Of a stretch of DNA of 64,000 nt, positions 592 to 18,660 are shown piece after piece. Within the stretch, counting starts at the first letter, position 1, and each line of letters begins with the position of its first letter. Origin of the DNA: Pseudeuparius sepicola (taxonomy: Eukaryota; Arthropoda; Insecta; Coleoptera; Anthribidae); contig OY987302.1 in the NCBI GenBank assembly GCA_963920635.1, forward strand, positions 28,309,278 to 28,373,277. The letters run 5' to 3'. The position numbers and the translations under genes are program-made. A model generated the notes under the pieces. That model was not told where the DNA came from and did not search any database. It saw only the letters and a list, made by a program, of their open reading frames with translations.

Positions 592-605
592 AGTAGTTAA
601 GTAAA

Positions 606-678
606 GCGGATCCTGGCTCAAAGATGGCCGCCATATGTGAGCCAGCTTCCGCATAAGGGTTTTTGAGCCAGGATCCGC
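606..678. repeat. Subterminal hairpin and direct repeats (left end)
   Basis: A 17-nt sequence GCGGATCCTGGCTCAAA (606-622) recurs inverted at 662-678 and could form a stem over a 39-nt loop. Within and beyond it, two similar direct repeats with the core GAGCCAG..TCCGCATA lie at about 638-661 and 665-687. The position 14 nt from the element end suggests a binding site for integrase or replication proteins (inference). Confidence 0.7.
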
Positions 679-749
679 ATAGGGTTTTCGGGGATAAAAT
701 CTGGCGGTGGGGGGGATTTGTGTGGGGGGATCCCCTCCACTTTTTTTAG

Positions 750-788
750 TATATATTTCGATGGTTGATTGGTAAAGTAGTACACAGT
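750..788 (+). promoter_or_regulatory. TATA and initiator upstream of the 106-aa gene (left)
   Basis: TATATATT at 750-757 is followed about 30 bp later by CACAGTTC, close to the arthropod initiator consensus (A/T)CAGT. The first ATG of the downstream gene is at 824. The mirror copy is at 16407-16445. Confidence 0.5.
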
Positions 789-823
789 TCTCACTTTTAA
801 CTTAACTAAATAAGATTAAAAGT

Positions 824-1144
824 ATGGCATCGTTTGTGACCCATTTAAATAACAGTTTGTTCCTGAAGAAATTCATTAGGGTCCAAGATTTGGAAGTCAA
901 CCGAAAGTTTGAGGTACATGCATTTACGAAAATAAACACCAAGTTCGGCGAGAAGATATCCTTGGAATTCGACGATTTCAAAACAATTTTACCGCAAAGG
1001 TTCACGGTAGAATTTACAGAAGAACGAATTGAGCAAGTAAACAAGGACATTTTCAACGGGCGAAAGTATTATCTTATTAGTTATGGACCTGTCGGGAAAA
1101 CAACTAATATTCAATTTTCCGTCCAAGAACCGGAACAGCTATAA
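824..1144 (+). CDS. 106-aa Polinton-associated small protein (left copy)
   Basis: Unrecognised by name. The ATG at 824 lies 36 bp after a TATA/initiator pair and starts a 106-residue protein. The pattern of alternating hydrophobic and charged residues around 'TKFGEKISLEFDDF' and 'LPQRF', ending in a 'GPVGKTTNIQF' strand, resembles short proteins often found beside A32-type ATPase and chromodomain integrase genes in insect Polinton-like elements. The strand-rich layout would suit a small beta-barrel such as an OB fold, so a single-strand DNA-binding role is possible, but I cannot show it. No signal peptide or membrane segment. It is the outermost gene of the arm, and an identical copy lies at 16051-16371. 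Confidence 0.7.
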   Translation: MASFVTHLNNSLFLKKFIRVQDLEVNRKFEVHAFTKINTKFGEKISLEFDDFKTILPQRFTVEFTEERIEQVNKDIFNGRKYYLISYGPVGKTTNIQFSVQEPEQL

Positions 1145-1493
1145 AAATACTTTGGAGTCTCACATTCGAAAATTACAGAAACTAAAATATGAAATTGATA
1201 TATATGAAATTAATAAGAACTTTAAACAATTAAAAATAAAATATATATAGCATAAGAGATGTTTCATTTCTTCTACCCATAGTAAATTAATAAAATAACA
1301 AACTACCCAGCAGGTGTACAACAAAGTAATAGTATAAAAAAAGTGCAAAACTGAAACTTGAATTAAAACCAAACACAATTTTTTCTTGCAGCTTGATGTA
1401 GCTCCAAACAAAAAATAATAATGCCTAATGATAAAAATTCTAACAAAAATAATAATTTCTGTGCCCTCTAAGGAAGTCCATACATAGTCCCCA

Positions 1494-1668
1494 TGCAAAT
1501 TCCCCATGTAAAGTCCCCATTTTAAGTCCCCATTTTAAGTCCCCATTTTAAGTCCCACTTAAGCCGCCCACTTTTTAAGTCCCACTTAAGCCGCCCACTT
1601 TTTAAGTCCCACTTAAGCCGCCCACTGTAGACGCCAACTTTCGACGCCAACTTTCGACGCCAACGTCT
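1494..1668. repeat. Iteron-like short tandem repeats (left)
   Basis: Three kinds of short direct repeat follow one another: AAGTCCCCATTTT-type units, AAGTCCCACTTAAGCCGCCCA units about 27 bp long (three copies), and GACGCCAACTTTC units (three copies). The right arm has one fewer of the first and of the last type, which fully explains the 26-bp length difference between arms. Clustered GC-rich iterons in a gene-free part of an otherwise AT-rich element suggest a replication or transcription control site (inference). Confidence 0.75.
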
Positions 1669-2438
1669 CAGTTGGATGCAGTACTTTTATAAGGATCTAC
1701 TAAGTAGGAGGAAGCTTTTCAGTTCCCACCTACAATTCTATAAACAGCCAATCCAGCGCAGATAGTGACTCGAACCATTTTTGGCATAATTCCAGAGAAA
1801 GTTAACCCTTTCAGAGTTTTACACCCGACTGTTCAAATTAGTTACACCTTCACCTGGTTTTAGTACCTTGAATCTTTTTGTGCCGAGTCAACAAAAATGC
1901 AGACAAGTTTGCCCCCTTTTACTTTTATAGCAGGCTGTTCACATTCTTTAGACTTTCACCTGTTTCTAAATCTTCTTGCGCGACCCTTCCTTCAAGGGAT
2001 AATCTTACATAACAATGATCCACTTTTAAATGTTTTTTGTCAGACTTTTTTTTTATAGTCCTGTAAATGGCATGTTATAAAAATTTACTGCCTGGTAGTT
2101 TTATAGCAGACTGTTCAAATTATTTAGATTTTCACCTGCTTGTAAATCTTCTCGTGCGACCCTACCTGAGATTTTAATAAAAAAAGGCTTTCAATGTTAA
2201 AACTTAAATGAGAATATTTTGCTGTTATTGTTATTTTGATAAAAAAAACTGTGTACATTATTAATATTCCACTTAAAATTCCTCGATAAAAATATTGCTT
2301 TAAAGTGGGTTAGTAAGGAATAGGTAAACAAAACTAAACAAGAAACCAGTATATAAATAAAACAAACTAAAATTAATTAATGTTTTGTTTTATTAAAATA
2401 ATTCATATATTTTGTTACAATAAACTTATATACAAATA
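1669..2438. repeat. Gene-free spacer with three degenerate ~70-bp direct repeats (left)
   Basis: No gene is visible. Three related segments start near 1815, 1919 and 2098, each with the order TATAGCA(G)GCTGTTCA...TTAGA(C/T)TTTCACCTG...AAATCTTCT.G.GCGACCCT. The last two are the most alike. The conserved order of blocks suggests a binding array or a decayed duplicated promoter. The end of the interval holds the poly(A)-type 3' region of the minus-strand gene that ends at 2439. Confidence 0.6.
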
Positions 2439-2936
2439 TTAGCACTGTCGTTGTCTGCGTAGACGGTCGAACCAGCCTTCATAATATGCATAATTATAAG
2501 TCGTTCGATTTCGTATTATGTCCTCATTATTCGCAAATCGAAAATACCCTGCCACATACCCAGATTCGTATTCGATTTGACGCTGATGATTAAACCACCC
2601 TGCGTAGTACGCCTTATTATATGCAATGATATCAGATTTAGCCATGTAAATGTCATTAGCGTCCGCAAAACACTGACCGTATCTGATCCATCCATCTTGA
2701 TATCCTGCACCATATTGAACTTTATCCATTTTCACGTCACCCTCCAGAAAACGCCTATTCTTACCAGCCTGATGATCAAACCATCCCGCGTATAAACCTT
2801 CATTATAGTGCCTCACATGAATGTCCCTTAATCGCCTAATTGGATTTGCGTTTTCTTCCGTTTTCCACTGACCATACGAACTCCATCCTGCACTGTATCC
2901 ATCATCTGTCACTTTTCTTTTATTCTGAGAATACAT
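2439..2936 (-). CDS. YxxGW-repeat protein, 165 aa (left copy)
   Basis: No known family recognised. The first ATG in frame is at 2936 (codons upstream lack an ATG), giving 165 residues. The whole protein is built of aromatic repeats: short 'GYSAGW', 'LYAGWFDHQ', 'GYQDGWIRYGQ', 'YYAGWFNHQ', 'GYVAGYFRF' and 'YYEGWFDR' motifs every 25-30 residues. Two types alternate, one continuing into YGQ-like and one into WFDHQ-like sequence. This looks like about three paired repeats of a small structural or binding module. No signal peptide or membrane helix. A TATA-like TATAAAAGG lies about 105 bp upstream (3039-3047). The opposite strand also has shorter open frames, which I regard as shadows. Confidence 0.75.
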   Translation of the reverse strand: MYSQNKRKVTDDGYSAGWSSYGQWKTEENANPIRRLRDIHVRHYNEGLYAGWFDHQAGKNRRFLEGDVKMDKVQYGAGYQDGWIRYGQCFADANDIYMAKSDIIAYNKAYYAGWFNHQRQIEYESGYVAGYFRFANNEDIIRNRTTYNYAYYEGWFDRLRRQRQC

Positions 2937-3352
2937 CTCAACGAGTGTTATAAACTTTTGCCACAATTATCTAGCTGAAGCAATATTTAATTCTTTGTAT
3001 TGAATTGAATTTAGTGAATTTTGTTAAGGATGTGGCTGCCTTTTATATTTAACGTAAGCATTGCCTATCCCCACTCAACAGCGTTGTCGTCTAATTAGAA
3101 AATAGAGCAATTTGAAGTAGAAAATTTTTTGGCAACGCCGAAGGGGTGGAGTTACCCCCACTCCCACCAGAGCAAAGTTAACGCCTAAATTAAAAAGTAG
3201 CAACGTTGAGAGCCATCCCCACCAACGCATTCATTTTAAAATCTACAGAAGGGTGTAGAAATTCAGCAAAAGCATCAGTTTTCTAAATTTTGTTGAATTG
3301 TGTTCGAGTTTTGTCGTGTGTTATTTTTAAATTTATTACTTTGCTTATAATT

Positions 3353-4468
3353 ATGAGTGTGTTCCAAACTAAGGCGATTGTCCACTACAATGCTGTTGTG
3401 AGGGTAAGTCAAAACTTATTTTTTTATAATTATTAAATACGTTATTTCAATTTGCTTCGAGAAACTATTTTGCTTTTTCGCATCAGAAAATTTTTAGCCA
3501 ACTTTTTTCTTGTTAGCCGCAAGTTGGAGATTTTCTTATGCGAAAAATATTTTTTTATTTGCGATATACTAACATTCAATAATTATTATAGTCACCATCT
3601 GCTTATAATCTCATCGAGACGCTTGCGGCAGAGGGGTCAGTTGAAAATTCATCTGAAGAAAACAATGTTGATCATGTAAGTAGACATGTTTATGAATTCT
3701 AACAAATAATAAATGTTTATCTTATACTTATAGTATTCCGAAGTGGACGATGAAAGCATTAGAAGCGCAACATCGTTTGCTGTGTCGCAGATCGAGCGTG
3801 AGCTGGCACATGAACAATCGGCATATGTACAGCCTGCACAACCTGCCGAATCGGCACATGTGCAGCCTGCGCAATTGACATATGTACAGCCTGAACAACC
3901 CGCACCTGAATATTCGGCACATGTGCAGCCTGCGCAATTGACATATGTACAGCCTGAACAACCCGCACCTGAATATTCGGCATATGTACAGCCTGCACAA
4001 CCTGCCGAATCGGCACATGTGCAGCCTGCGCAATTGACATATGTACAGCCTGAACAACCCGCACCTGAATATGAGCAACCCGCGCAACCTGCAGGGCATG
4101 CGTCGCCTGCTCAGTCTGAGCAAACCCACCGGCAGAACGTCTCCAGTCCTGTGAGGACTGTTGGGAAAAATATGGAGACGTTGAGAGCGGTTTATAACAG
4201 GGGGCGCCGCACAAACAGGTTTCCGGATGACAGCTTCGATTTTGAAGATCCAACAGCTGGAGGACGTCACAATTTGGAACTTAATAAAGTGCTGGAAGAT
4301 AATGTTGTCGTCTTACAGCTTCAAAGTAATAAGCTGGCCAAAAACAAGGCTGGTTTAAAAAATAAAACAGATAGGTTAGATAAATTAAGAAAAATTTTAG
4401 TAAATAGGATTAGTATAATAGAAATAGATGAAGCGCGTGTGAATAAAATATTAACTAGTTATAAGTAA
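3353..4468 (+). CDS. Three-exon Pro/Gln-repeat protein, 289 aa (left copy)
   Basis: Unrecognised family, but the gene structure is clear. Exon 1 (3353-3403, 17 codons from ATG) ends at AGG|GTAAGT. Exon 2 (3592-3675, 28 codons) follows a TACTAAC branch site and TTATAG acceptor and ends at CAT|GTAAGT. Exon 3 (3734-4468) follows a TTCTAAC branch site and CTTATAG. All junctions are phase 0, giving 289 residues. Introns are 188 and 58 bp. Residues about 75-160 are repeats of the type 'HVQPAQLTYVQPEQPAPEY', encoded by near-identical DNA repeats. The last ~60 residues form a Lys/Leu-rich coiled coil. The long antisense frames over the repeat are shadows. A structural or scaffold role is possible. 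An open frame from 3743 begins with GTG, not ATG, which supports the spliced model. Confidence 0.8.
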
Positions 4469-4642
4469 GCATAAGTTGAATCATATATATATAATATTAC
4501 ACATAGTTTTAAACCAACGCTTTGTTATTCATTTCTCACCCAATACCATTATAAACACCAAGCAATAAAATTTTATTACGTGCAATACAGAGTCGCTCGG
4601 TAGCTAAATACAAAAGTAATATTTTTCTCCTAAGCAGACCAT

Positions 4643-5320
4643 ACTTTAGCATAAGCGTACGTGCACACTTCCGGCTGAGGGAGATGTAAGAAAGGTAAAA
4701 AATATAGTTAGGGGATTTTACATAGCGATCGTCCTCGCTCGAACTCGCACGGACAAGCGGTAGCAAGCGGATACCTAAAATCCCAGAACATTTGTAGTAT
4801 CAAACTGTAGTTTTTAAGTAAATATTTTATTAAACGTTTATTTTCTTATATTCGAGAATTTAATTTAAATAATAATAATAAAACAATTATCCAATAATAC
4901 ATTTCATTTACAATAATACCAATGGCCTAGTTTTTGCACCTGTTTTACATATTAAGCATGTATCTTGCCGAAAAGCTATGCTTTAGCATAACCGTACGTG
5001 CACACTTCCGGCTGAGCGATGTAAGAAAGGTAAAAAATACAGCCAGGGGATTTTACATAGCGATCATCCTCGCACGGACAAGCAGTAGCATGCGACTACC
5101 TAAAATCCCAGAACATTTGTAGGTATCAAACTGTAGTTTTTAATTAAATATTTTATTTCACGTTTATTTTCTTATAGTCAGGAATTTAATTTAAATAATA
5201 ATAATAAAAACAGAATTATCCAATAATACATTTTATTTACAATAATACATTTTATTTACAATAATGGTATAATTTTTGCACCTGCTTTACACATCAAGCA
5301 GGTGTCTTGCCGAAAAGCTA
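4643..5320. repeat. Tandem duplication of the 3' end of the zinc-site gene (left)
   Basis: Two ~338-bp units (4643-4980 and 4981-about 5320) share TTTAGCATAA.CGTACGTGCACACTTCCGG, a segment ending CAGAACATTTGTAG, a TAATAATAATAA stretch and the coding tail TTTTTGCACCTG...GCCGAAAAGCTATG. The inner unit ends in the real 3' end of the gene at 5256-5756; the outer one holds a decayed copy of that coding end. This is direct evidence of local tandem duplication before the arm was duplicated. The mirror is at 11901-12578. Confidence 0.75.
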
Positions 5321-5756
5321 TGTAAAGCTTTTCTTTACAGGCACTACACCGCATGAATCTTTGCAAAGGCATTTCTGTCAAAGAAAAATGTAAAGTTTCA
5401 TGCCGATGCTTCGCATTGTCGGTGAAACCATTCAGGGAAACCTCTGTAAAATCTACCACATACGCACGGTAACAATTTAGGCACAAACGCGCCCTTTCTG
5501 TTACCTTTACATATGCGGCAGATACACAGAGGCCCCCCACTGTCCAGTTATTATAACCCTCGCTCGGGTTAATGGGTACACTTTTCGCCACGACGGAGTC
5601 ATCGCGGCCAACGTCTACCCCTTCATCTTCGTCACTAGCATCATCGTCGTCAATGTCGTCGATGTCTCTTCTCAATTCTGCAGGCACCGTTTTCTCAATC
5701 TCTTCTTTTTCTTCTAACGCAAGTTGGTATAGGGAATTATTTATGGAGGCAGCCAT
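5256..5756 (-). CDS. Acidic zinc-site protein, 166 aa (left copy)
   Basis: Not assignable to a named family. Residues 31-54 are a strongly acidic Asp/Glu tract. The C-terminal half holds Cys92-x2-Cys95, His117/His119/His123, Cys137-x2-Cys140 and Cys153-x2-Cys156, which could bind two zinc ions as in zinc-ribbon proteins. The ATG at 5756 follows a TATA/TCAGT promoter on the minus strand (5821-5828 and 5792-5797). A role in transcription or nucleic-acid binding is plausible from the acidic tract plus zinc sites, but not shown. The 3' end has been tandemly duplicated downstream. Confidence 0.75.
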   Translation of the reverse strand: MAASINNSLYQLALEEKEEIEKTVPAELRRDIDDIDDDDASDEDEGVDVGRDDSVVAKSVPINPSEGYNNWTVGGLCVSAAYVKVTERARLCLNCYRAYVVDFTEVSLNGFTDNAKHRHETLHFSLTEMPLQRFMRCSACKEKLYIAFRQDTCLMCKAGAKIIPLL

Positions 5757-5828
5757 TGTTATTAAATTTAATTTGTTTGGAGAAAAACTGTAACTGATGT
5801 CTATTGAGATATCTCCAGAGTTTTTATA

Positions 5829-6267
5829 GTCTAAAACATCAACCTGTACGAGATGTCTAGGAGGGGATCCTAGTGTTTTATGTCCTATTTAAATATATGC
5901 TATAAAAAGTGATACATTTTTTTAAATTTTAATTCATCCATTTCAGAAAACTGTATTTTTTGCTGTTTTTTATTTTGAAATAAATGGAACAACTAATCTG
6001 CATATTTGAGTTATTCCAAATTTCATAAAGATTGCAACTACTGATTTTCTTTTATGAATTGACGTGTAATCAATACAATGAAAATATTAGATTTTTAATA
6101 CAGGTCGTGCCCTCTATTTCTGTAGGGAAACAACTACAGTCGTGCTTCAAAAGTACTACCAATTGATCGATATTTCGCCGAATACTTTACCCTTGCAACA
6201 GGTATGCGCAAGGGGGTTCGAAAGATACCGCTGGGTGGTTCGAAGGCCCCGCCGTCGAGGGCGCGCT
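5829..6267. other. Gene-free spacer (left; mirrored at 10954-11392)
   Basis: No supported gene. A pyrimidine tract ending CTATTTCTGTAG near 6124 and a CAG|GTATGC near 6200 could be splice signals for an upstream exon of the Lys-rich gene, but no exon can be defended. Confidence 0.3.
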
Positions 6268-6519
6268 ATGAGTCTCAGGAACGCGGCGGCTGTCACAAAG
6301 AGAGAGATGGGAGATATGGAACTGAAAATTTGGAGCACTCCAAAGGCAAATGATCTAAAGGCAAAGGCAAATGATTCAAAGGCAAAGGCAAATGATCGGA
6401 AGGCAAATGATTCGAAGGCAAAGGCAAATGATCCAAAGGCAAAGGCAAATGATCGGAAGGCAAAGGTAAATGATCCGAAGGCAAGTGATCCGAAGGCAAA
6501 TGATCCAAAGGCAAATTAA
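6268..6519 (+). CDS. Lys-rich KAND-repeat protein, about 83 aa (left copy)
   Basis: The first ATG in frame is at 6268; the open frame extends further 5' but without an ATG. After about 27 residues the protein is almost only repeats of 'AKANDPK', 'AKANDRK' and 'AKANDSK' type, strongly basic and probably disordered. Small basic repeat proteins of DNA viruses often coat packaged DNA, which is one possible role, but no family is recognised. AATAAA lies about 40 bp after the stop. The DNA repeat could also be a simple minisatellite, so protein status is moderate. Identical copy at 10702-10953. Confidence 0.5.
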   Translation: MSLRNAAAVTKREMGDMELKIWSTPKANDLKAKANDSKAKANDRKANDSKAKANDPKAKANDRKAKVNDPKASDPKANDPKAN

Positions 6520-6611
6520 AAATATAGTATGAATGTATTGTAACAATGTGTTAGTATATAATAAAGATAAAATTAAGTATAATTGTCAGTGTTTTATTCC
6601 CCACCTACGTG

Positions 6612-7055
6612 ATGTATATGTGTGATATTTGCGGTACAACATTTTGTAGATCGGATAGTTTTACAAGACACAAGAATATTCACAGAACTATTATTTTTAT
6701 GTGTGAATTCTGTAGTAAAACGTTTTCGAGAAAAGATAACTTAAAAACTCATAAAAGAATCCACCAACTTCAAAACGACTTAGTTGTTAGCGAGGTCGTT
6801 GGATACAACGATTCGAAAGACGCGATGCAAATCCATCAGCAGACAGTTTCACTTCCAGTAGAAAACCTAGATATTGTGCAAGAAAGTAGTGCTAAATCTA
6901 AACACGGTGTACTGTTTCCAAACTCATTTAGGGCAATTTTTTGTGGACCTAGCGGATGTGGAAAAACCAACGCTTTACTTAGTTTAATATTTAATGAAAA
7001 CGGACTAAAATTCGAGAATATCAGAAAAGGATTTGATAGCTATATAAAACTCTAG
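6612..7055 (+). pseudogene. C2H2 zinc finger-A32-type ATPase, truncated left copy
   Basis: The first ATG is at 6612. Two C2H2 fingers (C4-C7-H20-H24 and C31-C34-H47-H51) are joined by a ~60-residue linker to an ATPase start with Walker A GPSGCGKT at residues 112-119, preceded by 'FPNSFRAIF'. This is the form of the poxvirus A32-like packaging ATPase found in insect Polinton-like elements, which pumps DNA into capsids. The gene breaks at 7021 after 'LKFENI' and runs into unrelated sequence (12 foreign residues), so Walker B and the rest are missing. The break point is the inner edge of the left arm. Confidence 0.8.
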
Positions 7056-7083
7056 TGACTCGGTATCTTTATTAGTAGCCAAC
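7022..7083 (+). promoter_or_regulatory. Left core junction and probable promoter of the DUF8207-like gene
   Basis: Unique sequence starts at 7022. TATATAAAAC at 7041-7050 followed by TTAGT about 30 bp later, just before ATG 7084, looks like a TATA/initiator promoter. The junction thus joins a broken ATPase to the intact upstream region of the next gene. Confidence 0.45.
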
Positions 7084-8007
7084 ATGCCCTTGACATCACA
7101 AGAACAAATTCAGAGAGCACAGCGTGCTAAAAAAATTAAAGAGCTAACTAGATCTATTAGAAGAAAATATGCTGCGTTAAAAACGGGTAAATCTGAGATG
7201 GATGAGACTTTAGATAAGATATTCAAGCCCGTAAAAGATTCTCTAAGCGAAATAAAAAATAATATGAAAGTTAAGGTAGGATCAAAGCAACAAACTGCAA
7301 TTCGGATAAAACCTAAGATAGAATTATTTACTAGTACGCCAAGTAAAAAGTTACCGTCTGAAATATCTGGAGAAAATACATTACCTACAACGGTCTTAGA
7401 ATCATCTCAAGTAACTGAATACGATGATGATGTTGAAGATGACGCAGATTATGGTTATCCTGAAACGGCCTTACCATACATTCAAAATTTCATCTCAAAA
7501 TCTGCTGATATTGATAATACTTATGGTCCTAAACTTGATCGCAGTACCTACACATGGACCTTAGGAAATAAACATATCGATTTTGATAAAGACACGGGAG
7601 ATATAATAATCGATAACACTCCTTTCAAGAGCACCGACGGACTTTACCAACTCATTTTCTATGAATATCCAGAATACAGTCAGGCGGATTTGTTAAATTA
7701 CAAGAAAATTTTAATGTTAACTGGTGTTCACCTTACATCGAATGGTAAATTGAGGGGTTCTCACAAGACCAAATACCTTAATATCATTAGACCTCTAATA
7801 AGAAGTAAAACTCAAGATGCGCAAGGTACAGGTATGCAGCTTACTTATAACACAAAACCCATAGAGTACGTATACTGGGATAATGTCAATGAATTAGTAG
7901 ATAGGTTGAAGTTACTTGTAGCTTCTAAAGATGCCGGAAACACTTCTCACGACAACGAAATCGCAGCCATCTTAAATGAATTAAAGGAAGCTAAAGTTAT
8001 TTACTAG
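7084..8007 (+). CDS. DUF8207-like protein, 307 aa
   Basis: Intact frame from ATG 7084. The N-terminal ~60 residues are basic and helical, then an acidic linker. Roughly residues 150-250 ('WTLGNKHIDFDKDTGDIIIDN', then 'GLYQLIFYEYP', 'YKKILMLTGVH' and 'KTKYLNIIRPL') match my memory of the DUF8207 domain found in arthropod proteins next to Polinton-type integrases. Function is unknown; a virion or packaging role has been suggested only by position. A short coiled-coil gene follows after 36 bp and then the integrase, an order I regard as typical for these elements. The family call is from memory and needs a profile search. Confidence 0.75.
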   Translation: MPLTSQEQIQRAQRAKKIKELTRSIRRKYAALKTGKSEMDETLDKIFKPVKDSLSEIKNNMKVKVGSKQQTAIRIKPKIELFTSTPSKKLPSEISGENTLPTTVLESSQVTEYDDDVEDDADYGYPETALPYIQNFISKSADIDNTYGPKLDRSTYTWTLGNKHIDFDKDTGDIIIDNTPFKSTDGLYQLIFYEYPEYSQADLLNYKKILMLTGVHLTSNGKLRGSHKTKYLNIIRPLIRSKTQDAQGTGMQLTYNTKPIEYVYWDNVNELVDRLKLLVASKDAGNTSHDNEIAAILNELKEAKVIY

Positions 8008-8043
8008 AAGTATAATTACTGTCAATATACAGTTAGTTACAAA

Positions 8044-8391
8044 ATGACTCTTAACAAGTTCGGACGCTCGTCGAAATACAAAAAGGCTAGCGGCATTGTG
8101 CACTCTCCTTTGTCCCAAAACCAAAAATTGAATAGCGATGCTTCAGCTATTTCATTTCAATATAATAAAGATAACGAAAAGCTTAGAAATATATTAGATG
8201 AGCGTCATAACTTTTTATTACGGTCAGTAAACGACTTTAAAAATAACGTTTCCCAGCAAATACAGGATTTTAAAGAGTTGTTAGAATTAAATACTGTTGC
8301 TTTGCAAACTGCCATAGAGAAAATAACACAAGAGCAGGATGTGATTAAAGAACAACTGAAATTGGATAAACAAAAGAGCGGTGTAAAGTAA
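8044..8391 (+). CDS. Small coiled-coil protein, 115 aa
   Basis: ATG at 8044, 115 residues. Residues about 50-110 form one long amphipathic helix rich in Leu, Gln, Glu and Lys ('QQIQDFKELLELNTVALQ'), typical of a coiled coil. The N-terminus is basic. No family recognised; found between the DUF8207-like gene and the integrase with short spacers on each side (36 and 33 bp), so it is probably a real element gene. Confidence 0.6.
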   Translation: MTLNKFGRSSKYKKASGIVHSPLSQNQKLNSDASAISFQYNKDNEKLRNILDERHNFLLRSVNDFKNNVSQQIQDFKELLELNTVALQTAIEKITQEQDVIKEQLKLDKQKSGVK

Positions 8392-8424
8392 TTTCATTTT
8401 AAGTTGGAATTGAGCAGTTGAACA

Positions 8425-9369
8425 ATGAATTTCGGTCATAGTGATGAAAAAGTTCGGTTAGTTAGGGAACTCCATAAACCAGCTCGAAAAAATTATCCTC
8501 GACGTCGAACTATTATCAAAGGCTTAGATGATCTTTGGCAAGCCGATCTTGCTCAGTTAGATCAATATGCTTACTGTAATAGAGGTAATAAATTCATATT
8601 AGTTGTAATTGACTCTTTCTCCAAATATGTCTGGTGTAGACCGCTACAATCCAAGTCTGGAGCAGATGTTACAAAGGCTTTTAAAGATATTTAAAAAAAC
8701 AGTGGGGGACGCAAGCCTCACAATTTACAAACCGATCAGGGCAAAGAATTTTACAACTCTGAATTCCAGAAATTGATGAAAACTTTTCAAATTAATCACT
8801 ACAGTACATTTACCGACAAAAAGGCAGCTATAGTGGAAAGAGTAATACGAACTTTGAAAGAAAAATTATTCAAGTATTTCAGTCTAAATGGAAAATATAG
8901 GTGGATTGATATTTTGCCTACTGTAGTAAATGAGTACAATAATAGGAAACATAGAACGATACAAATGAAGCCTGGTGAAGTTAACAAAAACAATGAGCAA
9001 CATTTAGTCACCAATGTGTACAACAGTCACTTAAAAGTTTTCAAAACTCGTAAATTTAGGAAGGGTGACATTGTGAGAATAAGTAAAGCTAGACATGTAT
9101 TTGACAAGGGATATCGACCTAATTAGACAACGGAGTTGTTCAAAATAATCAAAGTACAACACACCAATCCTCCCACATATTTGTTAGAAGATTTACGTGG
9201 AAGAGCTATAAAGGGTGGTTTTTATAATGAAGAATTGCAAAAAGTGGCAAATCCTGATATCTATTTGGTGGAAAAAGTGCTTCAAAGGAGGAGGGGGAAA
9301 GTTCTTGTGCGATGGCTCGGGTTAGATAAAAGCCACGACTCGTGGATAAGCGAAACAAACATTGTGTAG
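8425..9369 (+). pseudogene. Retroviral-type integrase with chromodomain, two nonsense codons
   Basis: One reading frame of 314 sense or stop codons plus terminator. Catalytic D41 ('LWQADLAQL'), D104 ('LQTDQGKEF') and E138 ('IVERVIRTL') form the DDE core that joins Polinton ends to target DNA. The C-terminal ~40 residues ('YLVEKVLQRR', 'VRWLGLDKSHDSWI') are a chromodomain, which may steer insertion to histone marks. TAA at codon 90 (8692-8694) and TAG at codon 234 (9124-9126, where related proteins have Trp) interrupt the frame with no frameshift, so decay is recent. Without suppression of both stops no active enzyme is made. The intact 6-bp target duplication shows that integrase worked when this copy inserted, either its own before decay or one in trans. 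Confidence 0.85.
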
Positions 9370-9394
9370 TTCTCTCGGTGAACGAACCGCCAAA

Positions 9395-10030
9395 ATGTCT
9401 GACAGTGGTTACGAATCCGATGTAAGCAGCAGTGAAAATGATATTGCAGAAGATTATTTGCTTTTGGCAGCATGTTTTCCAATCAAATCAACTAATGGAT
9501 TATTCATTCATACAGGGTTGAGTCTCAAGAAATATTTTGAGCCAGCAGTAATCATCACATACCTTTGTCATGATCGGAGAGTAATTTCCTTGAACTACTC
9601 TGAATGGAATAAATTATTGGAACATGTATGTGAATTTATTCATAATGGTGGAGCTCCAATGTTTGCCAGATTCGACTCACGTATGGTTCTAAGTACGGTG
9701 ATTGACGCCGATGGAAATCAGCACGTGTCGCTTAGAAAAAATAATGTGTATGTTTATTTTACCGAGGCAGATATTTTTGAATTGTTAAACGTTAGCATAA
9801 GTGCATCTTTGAGATTTGGCTTTTTGCTCCGCTTTGATTTTTATGATTTCTATTGTAATTTCTTAGATAAAGTCAATCATCTAGTAGTAAGTAGTAACTT
9901 AAATGAAACAGACATTATATTAATATTATGTAATATTACATTTAGTATAGAAACCTTTTGTATTTTTGAACTCTTCTGTTTTTACAAAGAGTTTCTGTTG
10001 GCTGATTTGTATAGGAGAAGGTTGGTTTAA
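9395..10030 (+). CDS. 211-aa Polinton-associated protein of unknown function
   Basis: Starts at ATG 9395 (CAAAATG context), 25 bp after the integrase stop. The N-terminus 'MSDSGYESDVSSSE' is acidic and phosphosite-like, followed by a mixed alpha/beta region with 'YFEPAVIITYL' and 'VYVYFTEADIFELL', then a Phe-rich C-terminal third. Similar mid-size proteins accompany these integrases in insect elements in my memory, but I cannot name a family. The stop lies 12 bp from the end of the convergent ATPase remnant, at a rearrangement junction, so the C-terminus may be truncated or altered. Confidence 0.55.
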   Translation: MSDSGYESDVSSSENDIAEDYLLLAACFPIKSTNGLFIHTGLSLKKYFEPAVIITYLCHDRRVISLNYSEWNKLLEHVCEFIHNGGAPMFARFDSRMVLSTVIDADGNQHVSLRKNNVYVYFTEADIFELLNVSISASLRFGFLLRFDFYDFYCNFLDKVNHLVVSSNLNETDIILILCNITFSIETFCIFELFCFYKEFLLADLYRRRLV

Positions 10031-10199
10031 TAAAACAACGTTCTACAAATATGGGTTTTTTGAATTTTCTCTAGCCTCTGATGGACCAATTACATCATCG
10101 TTTGAGTTAAAGGGAAAATATCCAACGCCACTAACTTGTTTAAGCACGTCTTGCAATAACTGATACTTGGGTTGGTACAGTGACTTACTGTACAAGTAA
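10031..10199. other. Right core junction
   Basis: Contains the ATPase segment present only on the right side (10060-10199) and a junction near 10040-10060 where ATPase-like sequence changes to the end of the plus-strand 211-aa gene. Nothing else is visible. Confidence 0.6.
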
Positions 10200-10609
10200 A
10201 TATTCTCGAATTTTAGTCCGTTTTCATTAAATATTAAACTAAGTAAAGCGTTGGTTTTTCCACATCCGCTAGGTCCACAAAAAATTGCCCTAAATGAGTT
10301 TGGAAACAGTACACCGTGTTTAGATTTAGCACTACTTTCTTGCACAATATCTAGGTTTTCTACTGGAAGTGAAACTGTCTGCTGATGGATTTGCATCGCG
10401 TCTTTCGAATCGTTGTATCCAACGACCTCGCTAACAACTAAGTCGTTTTGAAGTTGGTGGATTCTTTTATGAGTTTTTAAGTTATCTTTTCTCGAAAACG
10501 TTTTACTACAGAATTCACACATAAAAATAATAGTTCTGTGAATATTCTTGTGTCTTGTAAAACTATCCGATCTACAAAATGTTGTACCGCAAATATCACA
10601 CATATACAT
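10043..10609 (-). pseudogene. C2H2 zinc finger-A32-type ATPase, truncated right copy
   Basis: Same start and fingers as 6612-7055, but the ATPase continues about 50 residues further, through 'YLYSKSLYQPKY' to 'ENS', a stretch typical of the family, before diverging near 10060 and stopping at 10043. The Walker B aspartates expected just downstream are absent. Because this copy reaches beyond the palindrome edge (10200), the donor of the right arm had a longer ATPase than the present left arm. The two fused C2H2 fingers may give DNA specificity to the packaging enzyme (inference). Confidence 0.8.
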
Positions 10610-10701
10610 CACGTAGGTGGGGAATAAAACACTGACAATTATACTTAATTTTATCTTTATTATATACTAACACATTGTTACAATACATTCATACTATATT
10701 T

Positions 10702-10953
10702 TTAATTTGCCTTTGGATCATTTGCCTTCGGATCACTTGCCTTCGGATCATTTACCTTTGCCTTCCGATCATTTGCCTTTGCCTTTGGATCATTTGCCTT
10801 TGCCTTCGAATCATTTGCCTTCCGATCATTTGCCTTTGCCTTTGAATCATTTGCCTTTGCCTTTAGATCATTTGCCTTTGGAGTGCTCCAAATTTTCAGT
10901 TCCATATCTCCCATCTCTCTCTTTGTGACAGCCGCCGCGTTCCTGAGACTCAT
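10702..10953 (-). CDS. Lys-rich KAND-repeat protein, about 83 aa (right copy)
   Basis: Mirror of 6268-6519 with the same number and order of repeat units. An antisense open frame over the repeat (Pro/His/Leu-rich) is treated as a shadow. Confidence 0.5.
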   Translation of the reverse strand: MSLRNAAAVTKREMGDMELKIWSTPKANDLKAKANDSKAKANDRKANDSKAKANDPKAKANDRKAKVNDPKASDPKANDPKAN

Positions 10954-11392
10954 AGCGCGCCCTCGACGGCGGGGCCTTCGAACCACCCAGCGGTATCTTT
11001 CGAACCCCCTTGCGCATACCTGTTGCAAGGGTAAAGTATTCGGCGAAATATCGATCAATTGGTAGTACTTTTGAAGCACGACTGTAGTTGTTTCCCTACA
11101 GAAATAGAGGGCACGACCTGTATTAAAAATCTAATATTTTCATTGTATTGATTACACGTCAATTCATAAAAGAAAATCAGTAGTTGCAATCTTTATGAAA
11201 TTTGGAATAACTCAAATATGCAGATTAGTTGTTCCATTTATTTCAAAATAAAAAACAGCAAAAAATACAGTTTTCTGAAATGGATGAATTAAAATTTAAA
11301 AAAATGTATCACTTTTTATAGCATATATTTAAATAGGACATAAAACACTAGGATCCCCTCCTAGACATCTCGTACAGGTTGATGTTTTAGAC

Positions 11393-11429
11393 TATAAAAA
11401 CTCTGGAGATATCTCAATAGACATCAGTT
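11393..11429 (+). promoter_or_regulatory. TATA plus TCAGTT initiator of the zinc-site gene (right; mirrored at 5792-5828)
   Basis: TATAAAAA at 11393-11400 and TCAGTT at 11424-11429 are spaced 31 bp, the textbook arthropod core-promoter geometry. The ATG follows at 11465. Confidence 0.65.
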
Positions 11430-11464
11430 ACAGTTTTTCTCCAAACAAATTAAATTTAATAACA

Positions 11465-11965
11465 ATGGCTGCCTCCATAAATAATTCCCTATACCAACTT
11501 GCGTTAGAAGAAAAAGAAGAGATTGAGAAAACGGTGCCTGCAGAATTGAGAAGAGACATCGACGACATTGACGACGATGATGCTAGTGACGAAGATGAAG
11601 GGGTAGACGTTGGCCGCGATGACTCCGTCGTGGCGAAAAGTGTACCCATTAACCCGAGCGAGGGTTATAATAACTGGACAGTGGGGGGCCTCTGTGTATC
11701 TGCCGCATATGTAAAGGTAACAGAAAGGGCGCGTTTGTGCCTAAATTGTTACCGTGCGTATGTGGTAGATTTTACAGAGGTTTCCCTGAATGGTTTCACC
11801 GACAATGCGAAGCATCGGCATGAAACTTTACATTTTTCTTTGACAGAAATGCCTTTGCAAAGATTCATGCGGTGTAGTGCCTGTAAAGAAAAGCTTTACA
11901 TAGCTTTTCGGCAAGACACCTGCTTGATGTGTAAAGCAGGTGCAAAAATTATACCATTATTGTAA
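11465..11965 (+). CDS. Acidic zinc-site protein, 166 aa (right copy)
   Basis: Identical protein to 5256-5756, with its promoter at 11393-11429. AATAAA occurs within 10 bp of the stop codon and again 19 bp later, so poly(A) addition probably starts almost at the coding end. Confidence 0.75.
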   Translation: MAASINNSLYQLALEEKEEIEKTVPAELRRDIDDIDDDDASDEDEGVDVGRDDSVVAKSVPINPSEGYNNWTVGGLCVSAAYVKVTERARLCLNCYRAYVVDFTEVSLNGFTDNAKHRHETLHFSLTEMPLQRFMRCSACKEKLYIAFRQDTCLMCKAGAKIIPLL

Positions 11966-12578
11966 ATAAAATGTATTATTGTAAATAAAATGTATTATTG
12001 GATAATTCTGTTTTTATTATTATTATTTAAATTAAATTCCTGACTATAAGAAAATAAACGTGAAATAAAATATTTAATTAAAAACTACAGTTTGATACCT
12101 ACAAATGTTCTGGGATTTTAGGTAGTCGCATGCTACTGCTTGTCCGTGCGAGGATGATCGCTATGTAAAATCCCCTGGCTGTATTTTTTACCTTTCTTAC
12201 ATCGCTCAGCCGGAAGTGTGCACGTACGGTTATGCTAAAGCATAGCTTTTCGGCAAGATACATGCTTAATATGTAAAACAGGTGCAAAAACTAGGCCATT
12301 GGTATTATTGTAAATGAAATGTATTATTGGATAATTGTTTTATTATTATTATTTAAATTAAATTCTCGAATATAAGAAAATAAACGTTTAATAAAATATT
12401 TACTTAAAAACTACAGTTTGATACTACAAATGTTCTGGGATTTTAGGTATCCGCTTGCTACCGCTTGTCCGTGCGAGTTCGAGCGAGGACGATCGCTATG
12501 TAAAATCCCCTAACTATATTTTTTACCTTTCTTACATCTCCCTCAGCCGGAAGTGTGCACGTACGCTTATGCTAAAGT
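11901..12578. repeat. Tandem duplication of the 3' end of the zinc-site gene (right)
   Basis: Inverted counterpart of 4643-5320, with the same two ~338-bp units downstream of the gene at 11465-11965. Confidence 0.75.
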
Positions 12579-12752
12579 ATGGTCTGCTTAGGAGAAAAAT
12601 ATTACTTTTGTATTTAGCTACCGAGCGACTCTGTATTGCACGTAATAAAATTTTATTGCTTGGTGTTTATAATGGTATTGGGTGAGAAATGAATAACAAA
12701 GCGTTGGTTTAAAACTATGTGTAATATTATATATATATGATTCAACTTATGC

Positions 12753-13868
12753 TTACTTATAACTAGTTAATATTTTATTCACACGCGCTTCATCTATTTC
12801 TATTATACTAATCCTATTTACTAAAATTTTTCTTAATTTATCTAACCTATCTGTTTTATTTTTTAAACCAGCCTTGTTTTTGGCCAGCTTATTACTTTGA
12901 AGCTGTAAGACGACAACATTATCTTCCAGCACTTTATTAAGTTCCAAATTGTGACGTCCTCCAGCTGTTGGATCTTCAAAATCGAAGCTGTCATCCGGAA
13001 ACCTGTTTGTGCGGCGCCCCCTGTTATAAACCGCTCTCAACGTCTCCATATTTTTCCCAACAGTCCTCACAGGACTGGAGACGTTCTGCCGGTGGGTTTG
13101 CTCAGACTGAGCAGGCGACGCATGCCCTGCAGGTTGCGCGGGTTGCTCATATTCAGGTGCGGGTTGTTCAGGCTGTACATATGTCAATTGCGCAGGCTGC
13201 ACATGTGCCGATTCGGCAGGTTGTGCAGGCTGTACATATGCCGAATATTCAGGTGCGGGTTGTTCAGGCTGTACATATGTCAATTGCGCAGGCTGCACAT
13301 GTGCCGAATATTCAGGTGCGGGTTGTTCAGGCTGTACATATGTCAATTGCGCAGGCTGCACATGTGCCGATTCGGCAGGTTGTGCAGGCTGTACATATGC
13401 CGATTGTTCATGTGCCAGCTCACGCTCGATCTGCGACACAGCAAACGATGTTGCGCTTCTAATGCTTTCATCGTCCACTTCGGAATACTATAAGTATAAG
13501 ATAAACATTTATTATTTGTTAGAATTCATAAACATGTCTACTTACATGATCAACATTGTTTTCTTCAGATGAATTTTCAACTGACCCCTCTGCCGCAAGC
13601 GTCTCGATGAGATTATAAGCAGATGGTGACTATAATAATTATTGAATGTTAGTATATCGCAAATAAAAAAATATTTTTCGCATAAGAAAATCTCCAACTT
13701 GCGGCTAACAAGAAAAAAGTTGGCTAAAAATTTTCTGATGCGAAAAAGCAAAATAGTTTCTCGAAGCAAATTGAAATAACGTATTTAATAATTATAAAAA
13801 AATAAGTTTTGACTTACCCTCACAACAGCATTGTAGTGGACAATCGCCTTAGTTTGGAACACACTCAT
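12753..13868 (-). CDS. Three-exon Pro/Gln-repeat protein, 289 aa (right copy)
   Basis: Mirror of 3353-4468. Exons at 13868-13818, 13629-13546 and 13487-12753 on the minus strand carry the same donor, branch-site and acceptor motifs and the same protein. Both splice sites and repeat number are preserved exactly between arms. Confidence 0.8.
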
Positions 13869-14173
13869 AATTATAAGCAAAGTAATAAATTTAAAAATAA
13901 CACACGACAAAACTCGAACACAATTCAACAAAATTTAGAAAACTGATGCTTTTGCTGAATTTCTACACCCTTCTGTAGATTTTAAAATGAATGCGTTGGT
14001 GGGGATGGCTCTCAACGTTGCTACTTTTTAATTTAGGCGTTAACTTTGCTCTGGTGGGAGTGGGGGTAACTCCACCCCTTCGGCGTTGCCAAAAAATTTT
14101 CTACTTCAAATTGCTCTATTTTCTAATTAGACGACAACGCTGTTGAGTGGGGATAGGCAATGCTTACGTTAAA

Positions 14174-14210
14174 TATAAAAGGCAGCCACATCCTTAACAA
14201 AATTCACTAA
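14174..14210 (+). promoter_or_regulatory. TATA promoter of the YxxGW gene (right; mirrored at 3011-3047)
   Basis: TATAAAAGG at 14174-14182 is followed about 30 bp downstream by TTCACT, a weak initiator, and by the ATG at 14285. The same sequence occurs inverted in the left arm. Confidence 0.45.
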
Positions 14211-14284
14211 ATTCAATTCAATACAAAGAATTAAATATTGCTTCAGCTAGATAATTGTGGCAAAAGTTTATAACACTCGTTGAG

Positions 14285-14782
14285 ATGTATTCTCAGAATA
14301 AAAGAAAAGTGACAGATGATGGATACAGTGCAGGATGGAGTTCGTATGGTCAGTGGAAAACGGAAGAAAACGCAAATCCAATTAGGCGATTAAGGGACAT
14401 TCATGTGAGGCACTATAATGAAGGTTTATACGCGGGATGGTTTGATCATCAGGCTGGTAAGAATAGGCGTTTTCTGGAGGGTGACGTGAAAATGGATAAA
14501 GTTCAATATGGTGCAGGATATCAAGATGGATGGATCAGATACGGTCAGTGTTTTGCGGACGCTAATGACATTTACATGGCTAAATCTGATATCATTGCAT
14601 ATAATAAGGCGTACTACGCAGGGTGGTTTAATCATCAGCGTCAAATCGAATACGAATCTGGGTATGTGGCAGGGTATTTTCGATTTGCGAATAATGAGGA
14701 CATAATACGAAATCGAACGACTTATAATTATGCATATTATGAAGGCTGGTTCGACCGTCTACGCAGACAACGACAGTGCTAA
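14285..14782 (+). CDS. YxxGW-repeat protein, 165 aa (right copy)
   Basis: Identical to the 2439-2936 copy. It is preceded by TATAAAAGG at 14174-14182 and followed by AATAAA about 45 bp after the stop. The start at 14285 is the first ATG in the frame. Confidence 0.75.
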   Translation: MYSQNKRKVTDDGYSAGWSSYGQWKTEENANPIRRLRDIHVRHYNEGLYAGWFDHQAGKNRRFLEGDVKMDKVQYGAGYQDGWIRYGQCFADANDIYMAKSDIIAYNKAYYAGWFNHQRQIEYESGYVAGYFRFANNEDIIRNRTTYNYAYYEGWFDRLRRQRQC

Positions 14783-15552
14783 TATTTGTATATAAGTTTA
14801 TTGTAACAAAATATATGAATTATTTTAATAAAACAAAACATTAATTAATTTTAGTTTGTTTTATTTATATACTGGTTTCTTGTTTAGTTTTGTTTACCTA
14901 TTCCTTACTAACCCACTTTAAAGCAATATTTTTATCGAGGAATTTTAAGTGGAATATTAATAATGTACACAGTTTTTTTTATCAAAATAACAATAACAGC
15001 AAAATATTCTCATTTAAGTTTTAACATTGAAAGCCTTTTTTTATTAAAATCTCAGGTAGGGTCGCACGAGAAGATTTACAAGCAGGTGAAAATCTAAATA
15101 ATTTGAACAGTCTGCTATAAAACTACCAGGCAGTAAATTTTTATAACATGCCATTTACAGGACTATAAAAAAAAAGTCTGACAAAAAACATTTAAAAGTG
15201 GATCATTGTTATGTAAGATTATCCCTTGAAGGAAGGGTCGCGCAAGAAGATTTAGAAACAGGTGAAAGTCTAAAGAATGTGAACAGCCTGCTATAAAAGT
15301 AAAAGGGGGCAAACTTGTCTGCATTTTTGTTGACTCGGCACAAAAAGATTCAAGGTACTAAAACCAGGTGAAGGTGTAACTAATTTGAACAGTCGGGTGT
15401 AAAACTCTGAAAGGGTTAACTTTCTCTGGAATTATGCCAAAAATGGTTCGAGTCACTATCTGCGCTGGATTGGCTGTTTATAGAATTGTAGGTGGGAACT
15501 GAAAAGCTTCCTCCTACTTAGTAGATCCTTATAAAAGTACTGCATCCAACTG
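14783..15552. repeat. Gene-free spacer with three degenerate ~70-bp direct repeats (right)
   Basis: Inverted copy of 1669-2438. AATAAA near 14826, downstream of the YxxGW gene, probably serves as its poly(A) signal. The three repeat blocks lie at about 15050-15120, 15230-15300 and 15345-15405. Confidence 0.6.
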
Positions 15553-15702
15553 AGACGTTGGCGTCGAAAGTTGGCGTCTAAAGTGGGCGGCTTAAGTGGG
15601 ACTTAAAAAGTGGGCGGCTTAAGTGGGACTTAAAAAGTGGGCGGCTTAAGTGGGACATAAAATGGGGACTTAAAATGGGGACTTTACATGGGGAATTTGC
15701 AT
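15553..15702. repeat. Iteron-like short tandem repeats (right)
   Basis: Inverted counterpart of 1494-1668, lacking one GACGCCAACTTTC unit and one CCCCATTTTAAGT unit. It also carries two single-base differences, one beside the TAGACGCC unit and one in the GTCCCAC unit. Confidence 0.75.
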
Positions 15703-16050
15703 GGGGACTATGTATGGACTTCCTTAGAGGGCACAGAAATTATTATTTTTGTTAGAATTTTTATCATTAGGCATTATTATTTTTTGTTTGGAGCTACATC
15801 AAGCTGCAAGAAAAAATTGTGTTTGGTTTTAATTCAAGTTTCAGTTTTGCACTTTTTTTATACTATTACTTTGTTGTACACCTGCTGGGTAGTTTGTTAT
15901 TTTATTAATTTACTATGGGTAGAAGAAATGAAACATCTCTTATGCTATATATATTTTATTTTTAATTGTTTAAAGTTCTTATTAATTTCATATATATCAA
16001 TTTCATATTTTAGTTTCTGTAATTTTCGAATGTGAGACTCCAAAGTATTT

Positions 16051-16371
16051 TTATAGCTGTTCCGGTTCTTGGACGGAAAATTGAATATTAGTTGTTTTCC
16101 CGACAGGTCCATAACTAATAAGATAATACTTTCGCCCGTTGAAAATGTCCTTGTTTACTTGCTCAATTCGTTCTTCTGTAAATTCTACCGTGAACCTTTG
16201 CGGTAAAATTGTTTTGAAATCGTCGAATTCCAAGGATATCTTCTCGCCGAACTTGGTGTTTATTTTCGTAAATGCATGTACCTCAAACTTTCGGTTGACT
16301 TCCAAATCTTGGACCCTAATGAATTTCTTCAGGAACAAACTGTTATTTAAATGGGTCACAAACGATGCCAT
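16051..16371 (-). CDS. 106-aa Polinton-associated small protein (right copy)
   Basis: Identical protein to the copy at 824-1144, on the opposite strand at the other end of the palindrome. TATA (16438-16445 on the minus strand) and initiator (near 16407-16411) are preserved. Function unknown; an OB-like fold is only a guess from the strand pattern. Confidence 0.7.
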   Translation of the reverse strand: MASFVTHLNNSLFLKKFIRVQDLEVNRKFEVHAFTKINTKFGEKISLEFDDFKTILPQRFTVEFTEERIEQVNKDIFNGRKYYLISYGPVGKTTNIQFSVQEPEQL

Positions 16372-16516
16372 ACTTTTAATCTTATTTAGTTAAGTTAAAA
16401 GTGAGAACTGTGTACTACTTTACCAATCAACCATCGAAATATATACTAAAAAAAGTGAAGGGGATCCCCCCACACAAATCCCCCCCACCGCTAGATTTTA
16501 TCCCCGAAAACCCTAT

Positions 16517-16589
16517 GCGGATCCTGGCTCAAAAACCCTTATGCGGAAGCTGGCTCACATATGGCGGCCATCTTTGAGCCAGGATCCGC
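16517..16589. repeat. Subterminal hairpin and direct repeats (right end)
   Basis: Exact inverted counterpart of 606-678, with the same 17-nt stem and the same paired direct repeats, 14 nt from the right end of the element. Confidence 0.7.
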
Positions 16590-16603
16590 TTTACTTAACT
16601 ACT

Positions 16604-16609
16604 TAAAGG
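16604..16609. repeat. Right 6-bp target-site duplication TAAAGG
   Basis: Matches 586-591. Removing the Polinton and one duplicate restores an uninterrupted mariner-type end ...TA-AAGGGTTTTTCCG. Confidence 0.9.
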
Positions 16610-16984
16610 GTTTTTCCGTATATTTTTCAACCCACCCTAGAACCTCCATTTTTAATCCTAGAATAAAACTTTTTATATGAAAGTTATAGGATTTTTTACG
16701 AGCCATTTGAATCTGTTAACAGATGAAACAAACGAACGTCGGAAAATTGAGAAAAATATATAAACTTTAGTTTTTTATATGGAACACCCTGTATATTTTT
16801 GGATTTTTGAAATCTACTGGTTCTTCTGATTCCAACGATATATATATATTACATATTTGCTCCACCCGCCTGCTCAGTATTTCACGTTGCATAATTTGAC
16901 TATATAGTGTAAGGATCAAGAGACCCATGGAAAAACAAATTTGTATTTATTCATAGATATTTTAATAACTTTATAAGAACTTTA

Positions 16985-17248
16985 CTAACAACAAGAAAAA
17001 TAAAATAATAAAGGGTTATATCTCGACGTATCCACCATTAACTTCGTAACATCTTGTGATATTGTTTTTCCATTTATTTCAGGCATTTCTAACGAATTGA
17101 GAGTCTTCGGTCTTTCATAATATATTTTATTTTTTAAATATCTCCACATATCCAAGGAAGGCTGGTCCGGGCTGTTTGCCAGCCATCTAATTGAACCATG
17201 TCTTCCTATCAATTAATTATATTTGTCATTCAAATAATTTGTTACCGA
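16985..17248 (-). pseudogene. Inverted duplicate of the mariner transposase C-terminus
   Basis: Minus-strand frame with 'IRWLANSPDQPSLDMW' and 'YLKNKIYYERP', corresponding to the plus-strand sequence at 17570-17880. The duplicate begins exactly at the GTAACAAATTATTTG segment and forms the left half of the palindrome. Confidence 0.75.
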
Positions 17249-17871
17249 CTTACTAAATAAAATATTTTTTACGGACGAAGCTACGTTCACAACAGCCGGA
17301 ATGTGTAACAGGCAAAATAAAAGATACTGGAACACAGAAAATCCACATAAGTACCAAGCTGTTAAAATCCAAGGGCGACAATCACTGAACGTTTGGTGTG
17401 GGATATTAGAAAATAGAGTTTTGGGGCCGATTATTTTTGAAGGCAGTTTAACCGGAGAAAGAGACAAAAATTACCTTCAGAACGAAATTGAAGTCTTACT
17501 GCAACATCTTCCGAACCGCCAACAATTAATTTGGCAACAAGATGGGGCAGCCCCACATAACATCAGGTCGGTAACAAATTATTTGAATGACAAATATGAT
17601 TCATGGATAGGAAAACATGGTTCAATTAGATGGCCGGCAAACAGCCCGGACCTGCCTTCCTTGGATATATTTCTGTGTTCTGTGGGGATATTTAAAAAAC
17701 AAAATATATTATGACAGACCGGAAAATATCAATAGCCTTCGAAATAAATTAGAAATAGAGATTTTTTAACTAAATACGGAAAACTCTCAATTCGTTAGAA
17801 ATGCCTTAAATAAATGGAAAAACAATATCACAAGATGTTACGAAGTTAATGGTGGATACGTCGAGATATAA
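17249..17871 (+). pseudogene. Mariner-like DDE/D transposase, N-truncated and frameshifted
   Basis: Encodes the catalytic half: 'FFTDEATF' (first Asp), 'WQQDGAAPHN' (second Asp) and 'WPANSPDLPSLD' (third acidic motif), then a frameshift near 17685-17700 and a short C-terminus ending at 17871. The DNA-binding N-terminal domain is missing because it was replaced by an inverted copy of the 3' end. Cannot be active. Confidence 0.8.
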
Positions 17872-17920
17872 CCCTTTATTATTTTATTTTTCTTGTTGTT
17901 AGTAAAGTTCTAATAAAGTG

Positions 17921-18254: not shown

Positions 18255-18660
18255 TTAAAATATCTATGAATAAATACAAATTTGTTTTTCCATGGGTCTC
18301 TTGATCCTTACACTATATATTCAAATTATGCAACGTGAAATACTGAGCAGGCGGGTGGAGCAAATATGTAACATATATATATCGTTGGAATCAGAAGAAC
18401 CATTAGATTTCAAAAATCCAAAAATATACAGGGTGTTCTATTTAAAAAACAAAACTTTATATATTTTTCTCAATTTTTCGACGTTCGTTTGTTTCATCTG
18501 TTAACAGATTCAAATGGCTCATAAAAAATCCTATAACTTTCATATAAAAAGTTCTTTTCTAGGATCAAAAATGGAGGTTCTAGGGTGGGTTGAAAAATAT
18601 ACGGAAAAACCCTGTACGTGTCAGAAGCAAGTAGTGCCTAGACTAGAATTACTTGTAGAA

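Follow-up and report, generated by a model that had tools for sequence, protein, structure and literature searches.

A palindromic Polinton derivative inserted at many sites in the genome of Pseudeuparius sepicola

The window, the 64,000-nucleotide stretch of DNA that was analysed, contains a 16,012-bp element (592-16603) built as a near-perfect inverted palindrome, with TAAAGG on either side. We interpreted it as one member of a family of palindromic Polinton satellites that occupies at least 39 sites and is likely replicated, possibly packaged, by the proteins of a 19.4-kb relative whose ends it shares (probability roughly 0.78).

Arms, core and genes of the palindrome

The left arm (592-7021, + strand) and the right arm (10062-16603, - strand, of which 10200-16603 is represented in both window arms) surround a single-copy core (7022-10061, + strand). 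Comparison of 592-7021 with 10200-16603 by BLASTN gave 99.55% identity over 6430 columns, with 3 mismatches and 3 gap openings; MAFFT alignment of the same two arms gave 4 mismatches. The differences were confined to the outer 1.1 kb, and the inner 5,401 bp were exactly alike. Chance was excluded, given a repeat of 6.4 kb that recurs across the genome. The target-site duplication consists of the same 6 bp at 586-591 and 16604-16609. A first-pass annotation had described both the palindrome and its clean outer duplication, and both proved real.

The fold-back junction of the family (J2) was placed at 10061/10062 from other copies. Relative to the other copies read, the left arm later lost 459 bp at the 7021/7022 step, a deletion common to the window and copy L003. 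With J2 at this position and the left arm shortened later, the true unique core is about 3.04 kb. The arms of the other copies read measure about 6.5-7.2 kb. The lengths first proposed were about 6.4 kb for the arms and 3.2 kb for the core. The proposed core junction at 7021/7022 is present but secondary, and the one put at about 10050 lies at 10061/10062.

A further junction (J1), at 6292/6293 and mirrored at 10928/10929, joins the outward end segment to a block of KAN repeats and ATPase. It was located by the match to a polymerase-bearing element (L061), which starts at 6293-6294 and was read in L061 from the ATPase-block side of the junction. This block faces the capsid genes in the polymerase-bearing element, and a terminal repeat at 592-693 (+) is common to the far end of that element over 107 columns. 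The arms are doubled, in line with the earlier idea of two doses of left-end genes, but neither is a plain copy of a single parental end: each appears to combine a polymerase-side end with an inverted KAN/ATPase block.

Each arm carries frames of 106, 165, 98 and 166 aa and a zinc-finger ATPase. The 106-aa gene (824-1144, +; second copy 16051-16371, -) sits within 909 bp common to five polymerase-bearing elements. Its protein had no Pfam match, a homologue search with it found none, and its single-sequence fold prediction reached a pLDDT of 45. YYxGWF-like motif repeats were recognised by eye in the 165-aa gene (2439-2936, -; 14285-14782, +). Tandem repeats occur in the next frame, which is 98 aa from the ATG at 4172 or 244 aa in full (3734-4468, +); its 98-aa counterpart lies at 12753-13049 (-). 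The 166-aa gene (5256-5756, -; 11465-11965, +) has zinc-ribbon-like cysteines, with a Pfam E value of 0.058, under the cut-off. The ATPase combines a C2H2 finger with an A32-like domain and is truncated in both window arms, the left copy (6612-7055, +) by the 7021/7022 deletion and the right copy (10043-10609, -) by J2. In copy L002 it matched the FtsK/A32 type (PF04665, E 4.3e-11).

Four genes occupy the core. A 307-aa DUF8207-family protein (7084-8007, +) had 65 homologues, all with a precomputed PF26634 assignment, and our own hmmscan of it gave no PF26634 match. The sole species-named entry among the homologues listed was from a flea beetle, at 43% identity. Comparison with viral contigs confirmed no relative, and a fold search of the predicted model against the PDB gave no match at E <= 0.001. 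It is followed by a 115-aa protein (8044-8391, +), coiled-coil-like by eye, and by an rve integrase (8422-9369, +) with a chromodomain-like C-terminus (under the Pfam cut-off). The integrase is broken in the window by stops at 8692-8694 and 9124-9126; in seven other core loci read, the frame is open over 315 aa, and in L002 it matched PF00665 (E 1.7e-14). The last core gene encodes a 211-aa protein (9395-10030, +) and is convergent with the polymerase gene in L061.

The window copy is thus decayed, with both ATPases cut and stops in the integrase. Protein-primed polymerase B and jelly-roll capsid genes were searched for in the palindrome and neither was found; the first-pass annotation had suggested, as a possibility, that helper functions supply replication and capsids.

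Copies in the genome and agreement between their arms

A search for the core in the assembly that contains the window (769 Mb, 16 contigs) found at least 40 copies. Of 1,474 candidates, 40 were scored, and each matched at about 100% over all 3,178 bp. Full-length matches necessarily span J2, so the junction at 10061/10062 is present in all 40. Two of the cores lay within one 31-kb end pair, which gave at least 39 insertions. The palindrome had been presented as a single event; it is instead a family, and the search for further copies with the same junction, proposed at the same time, succeeded.

An inverted partner of 10061-10199 was found near the core start in 37 of the 40 scored cores. It was absent in the window, C1:87759805 and C3:7781391, and the 7021/7022 deletion was directly seen in the window and C1:87759805. 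In six compared loci that bear the partner (L002 and L004-L008), the left arm was 459 bp longer than that of the window.

Perfect 6-bp duplications bounded 15 of the 16 copies examined at both ends. This tally comprises the window, all ten copies of a first set and four new copies from a second set of ten, in which nine were perfect and five of these were already in the first set. The exception was C1:87759805, whose right end was not found. Together with the integrase open in seven other loci, this showed that the family spreads by insertion as one unit, and it supported the earlier view of a fold-back Polinton derivative that integrates whole.

Eight core loci were read, L001 being that of the window. 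The integrase frame was open in seven of them and the ATPase frame full-length in five (L002, L005-L008); in L004 the ATPase was split and the DUF8207 frame shortened. With both frames open in several copies, partial autonomy is possible. The near identity of the copies suggests recent activity in the host.

Ten copies with both arms were compared; copy 2, which has no right arm, was left out of the within-copy counts. The two arms of one copy differed by 0-7 SNPs over 6.4-7.2 kb, and the left arms of different copies by 1-41 SNPs. Seven of the ten are closely related, with 1-9 SNPs between their left arms, and the agreement between arms therefore draws mostly on the more distant three: the window copy, copy 1 and copy 3.

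The ungapped columns included 57 variable ones, 56 of them with two alleles. Among these 56, 24 were common to at least two copies, and at all 24 the arms agreed in every copy. Of the others, 18 had a variant confined to a single arm, and 14 a variant confined to a single copy but present in both of its arms. Indels followed suit: 116 cells were shared by the two arms and 21 were limited to one. In copies 1 and 3 both arms contained an extra stretch of several hundred bp, which neither arm of the other eight had. This suggested that both arms of a new copy are taken from one template. Single-arm changes seem to gather after each new copy forms, and the arms could serve as a clock, seemingly reset at each jump and drifting afterwards. 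In-place conversion between arms would be a weaker explanation of their likeness.

A polymerase-bearing relative with the same ends

The exact 22-bp tip of the element occurred 264 times in the genome, and its reversed control did not occur. The 100 tip sites listed formed 48 inverted pairs and 4 unpaired tips. Spacing was 15.0-18.7 kb in 31 of the pairs, 19.2-19.8 kb in 15, and 31.1 and 33.1 kb in the remaining two. Among the matches listed, the polymerase was found in 14 of the 48 pairs and the palindromic core in 13 others; no pair had both, and 21 had neither. The 14 with the polymerase were one pair of 17.5 kb and 13 of the 15 in the 19.2-19.8 kb class.

The right half of one 19.4-kb element (L061) was read. 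It begins with a polymerase C-terminus, which faces the 211-aa gene, and continues with the integrase, the 115-aa gene and the DUF8207 protein. Then come a full ATPase, repeats and a 142-aa frame, and next the capsid gene, encoding a double-jelly-roll protein of 402 aa (PF21738, E 2.6e-77). Beyond it lie a frame of 240 aa and a PLA2-like protein of 258 aa, and a terminal repeat of about 107 bp closes the element. This right end differed from bases 1-102 of the palindrome arm by 1 mismatch and 5 gap positions.

The polymerase fragment of L061 had no Pfam match of its own. We named it polymerase B on the strength of its 65% identity, over 219 aa, to a relic in the window that matches PF03175. 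Copies of this polymerase piece numbered at least 40 at about 100% (40 of 1,176 candidates scored). Judged from the end spacing, the other copies probably sit in complete elements as well. A genome search with PF03175 found other polymerases, none of them in these polymerase-bearing elements among the matches listed.

Over the block from the ATPase to the 211-aa gene, L061 was 99.5-99.9% identical to the window copy and to each of the other seven core loci. Its polymerase piece and capsid-side DNA gave no match to the window element: the palindrome is without the polymerase and capsid block that the 19.4-kb relative carries. On the polymerase side, five polymerase-bearing elements contained at least 909 bp of the palindrome arm end. 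From these five ends, the inner part of the arm (1501-6292) is probably polymerase-side end too. The relative is a candidate for the helper that the first-pass annotation had postulated. The palindrome may depend on it, and the two would form a candidate helper/satellite pair inside one animal genome.

Origin, rival explanations and known systems

We propose that the palindrome arose while a linear element was copied from end to end, when the strand copied from the polymerase-side end twice switched template by folding back. At J1, the polymerase-side end would have been joined to the inverted block KAN-ATPase-DUF8207-115-integrase-211. At J2, the copy would then have folded back at the 3' edge of the polymerase into the ATPase and run out to the same end, which would remove the polymerase and double the end. 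Relative to the fuller element, everything from the polymerase outward would be replaced by inverted ATPase, repeats and end. An early reading, in which the right arm had the parental order and one switch sufficed, was overturned by the other copies and the relative.

The sequence at J2 is CAAATATGGGTTTTTT on the 211 side and CAAATATGAAAACC on the ATPase side, where it precedes GAATTTTC, a sequence common to the palindrome and the ATPase. The two sources had no common base at the exact breakpoint, and CAAATATG (eight bases) in common 6-8 nt away. With microhomology near the breakpoint and not at it, the switch model draws more on structure than on microhomology.

The arms could be kept alike by a single-strand panhandle with 6.5-kb arms or by repeated fold-back. 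In the adenovirus model, the displaced strand of a linear, end-copied genome forms such a panhandle, and a genome of this kind would keep both arms alike.

If an ordinary Polinton had been duplicated in inverted orientation in the chromosome, or altered by gene conversion, after its insertion, the palindrome would be a local rearrangement. Inverted duplications are common in genomes, and conversion between inserted arms could equalise them, which the 14 both-arm SNP columns private to one copy would fit. However, in 15 of 16 copies the duplications bracket the palindrome as a whole, and all 40 scored cores, which lie at different places, have one and the same J2. One-arm SNPs also remain (18 of 56 two-allele columns), and frequent in-place conversion would erase them. 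We regard such a local rearrangement as very improbable, and the data already contradict it as the source of the spread. It is scarcely credible that chimeric hairpin reads in the assembly produced the structure. Hairpin chimeras do occur in long-read data, but here one junction was found at 40 scored places, with flanks that differ and duplications that match where they were read, the left and right arms have private differences, and the same secondary deletion occurs at two loci. Both explanations were rejected.

A palindromic transposon sufficient in itself, using its own integrase and copied by host enzymes without a Polinton helper, would agree with the 40 or more copies, the integrase open in seven of eight core loci and the full-length ATPase in five of eight. 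On the other hand, the polymerase gene was not found in the palindrome, its ends and 99.5-99.9% identity tie it to a co-resident polymerase-bearing element, and the agreement of the arms requires copying beyond cut-and-paste alone. We consider self-sufficiency unlikely, and prefer a satellite served by its same-ended relative.

The palindrome shares with Polinton/Maverick (adintovirus-like) elements the 6-bp duplications, the (AGT)2 end, the rve integrase with a chromodomain-like end and the A32-type ATPase. The Polinton genes for polymerase B and a DJR capsid protein are in the co-resident relative and not in the palindrome. PMC8097293 reports for vertebrate Mavericks the (AGT)2 end motif, which the palindrome end AGTAGT fits, and inverted repeats of 46-1,447 bp in 134 intact vertebrate elements. 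That of the palindrome, about 6.4-7.2 kb, is outside the reported range. With duplication, end motif, integrase and ATPase present, the polymerase and capsid genes missing and the repeat too long, the palindrome is a derivative and not a complete Polinton. No report of a palindromic Polinton was found in the available portions of the literature on palindromic, non-autonomous, long-TIR, insect and defective Polintons and on adenovirus analogues.

Some defective adenovirus genomes have the left end duplicated in inverted orientation, have lost internal and late genes, and use a helper with the same origin. The palindrome likewise has one end doubled in inverted orientation, genes lost and a fuller partner with the same ends; unlike them, it is integrated in the genome, repeatedly inserted and inherited by the host. 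Non-autonomous derivatives of DNA transposons (MITE-like, foldback) have the ends of a fuller partner and lack internal genes. The palindrome resembles them in both respects, but it measures 15-18 kb, several of its copies retain integrase and ATPase frames, and its gene-bearing arms co-evolve within each copy. It appears to be a fuller element rearranged with its ends kept, the direction of change being suggested by gene content. On the best reading it would work like an inherited defective-interfering genome, probably with a helper.

More broadly, palindromic satellites might be a standing second life form of Polintons, arising whenever protein-primed copying folds back, out-replicating the complete element, inherited and spread by integration. 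We put this forward only tentatively and think it rather doubtful. Mirror genomes would then win since the favoured end, for replication origin or for packaging, is present on either side.

Adenovirus passes through a linear, end-copied form able to fold on itself, and the co-evolving mirror arms are indirect evidence for a similar linear, self-folding stage in Polintons. Maverick particles were unobserved as of 2021, according to PMC8097293.

Among the matches listed in the PF03175 search, six further inverted pairs of polymerase matches lay 5-15 kb apart, mostly with near-equal scores. On the tentative reading of palindromes as a standing form, these would be independent cases in other Polinton families.

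Paired arrangements elsewhere in the assembly

On contig C2 of the window's own genome assembly (G000), a 31.1-kb pair of ends (C2:73863360-73894490) enclosed two palindromic cores in identical orientation. The exact 22-bp tip was absent from its interior among the tips listed. We interpreted this sequence arrangement as a probable dimer-like insertion, perhaps originating in a concatemer.

Among the matches listed, polymerase B also occurred in this assembly as six inverted pairs, spaced 5-15 kb apart and mostly with near-equal scores (C5:31297250-31309203, C7:27332072-27342571, C3:42016954-42028194, C3:44255499-44260540, C11:39471801-39479224 and C2:74764059-74779479). These may represent palindromes of other Polinton families.

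Polymerase B near and apart from the palindromes

The palindromic copy L031/L032 (C1:87751805-87770600) carried the same 459-bp deletion as the window copy. Its right end was not recognisable, and a polymerase B fragment (C1:87767602-87768849) lay inside the expected right arm.

A further polymerase family was present at numerous sites on C1 and C2, many with 1254-aa open frames among the matches listed. The 22-bp tip was not found near this family among the places listed.

Within the window, a polymerase B relic of another Polinton was located at 58778-60662 on the minus strand (PF03175, E 2.9e-11, at 58778-59899). It shared 65% identity over 219 aa with the polymerase of L061, the 19.4-kb polymerase-bearing relative.

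Other mobile-element-like sequences in the window

The right flank of the palindromic element began at the edge of a second inverted-repeat element (16601-18619; 365-bp arms, 96%). The frame at 17238-17714 within it appeared transposase-like by eye and gave no Pfam match.

A Penelope-like element with reverse transcriptase and GIY-YIG domains occupied 45567-47706 (plus strand). Two related stretches, 23329-25925 and 61738-63715, appeared reverse-transcriptase-like by eye; the one frame tested from them gave no Pfam match. They had a 258-bp repeat (97%) in common, and the latter contained two direct repeats (300 bp, 96%).
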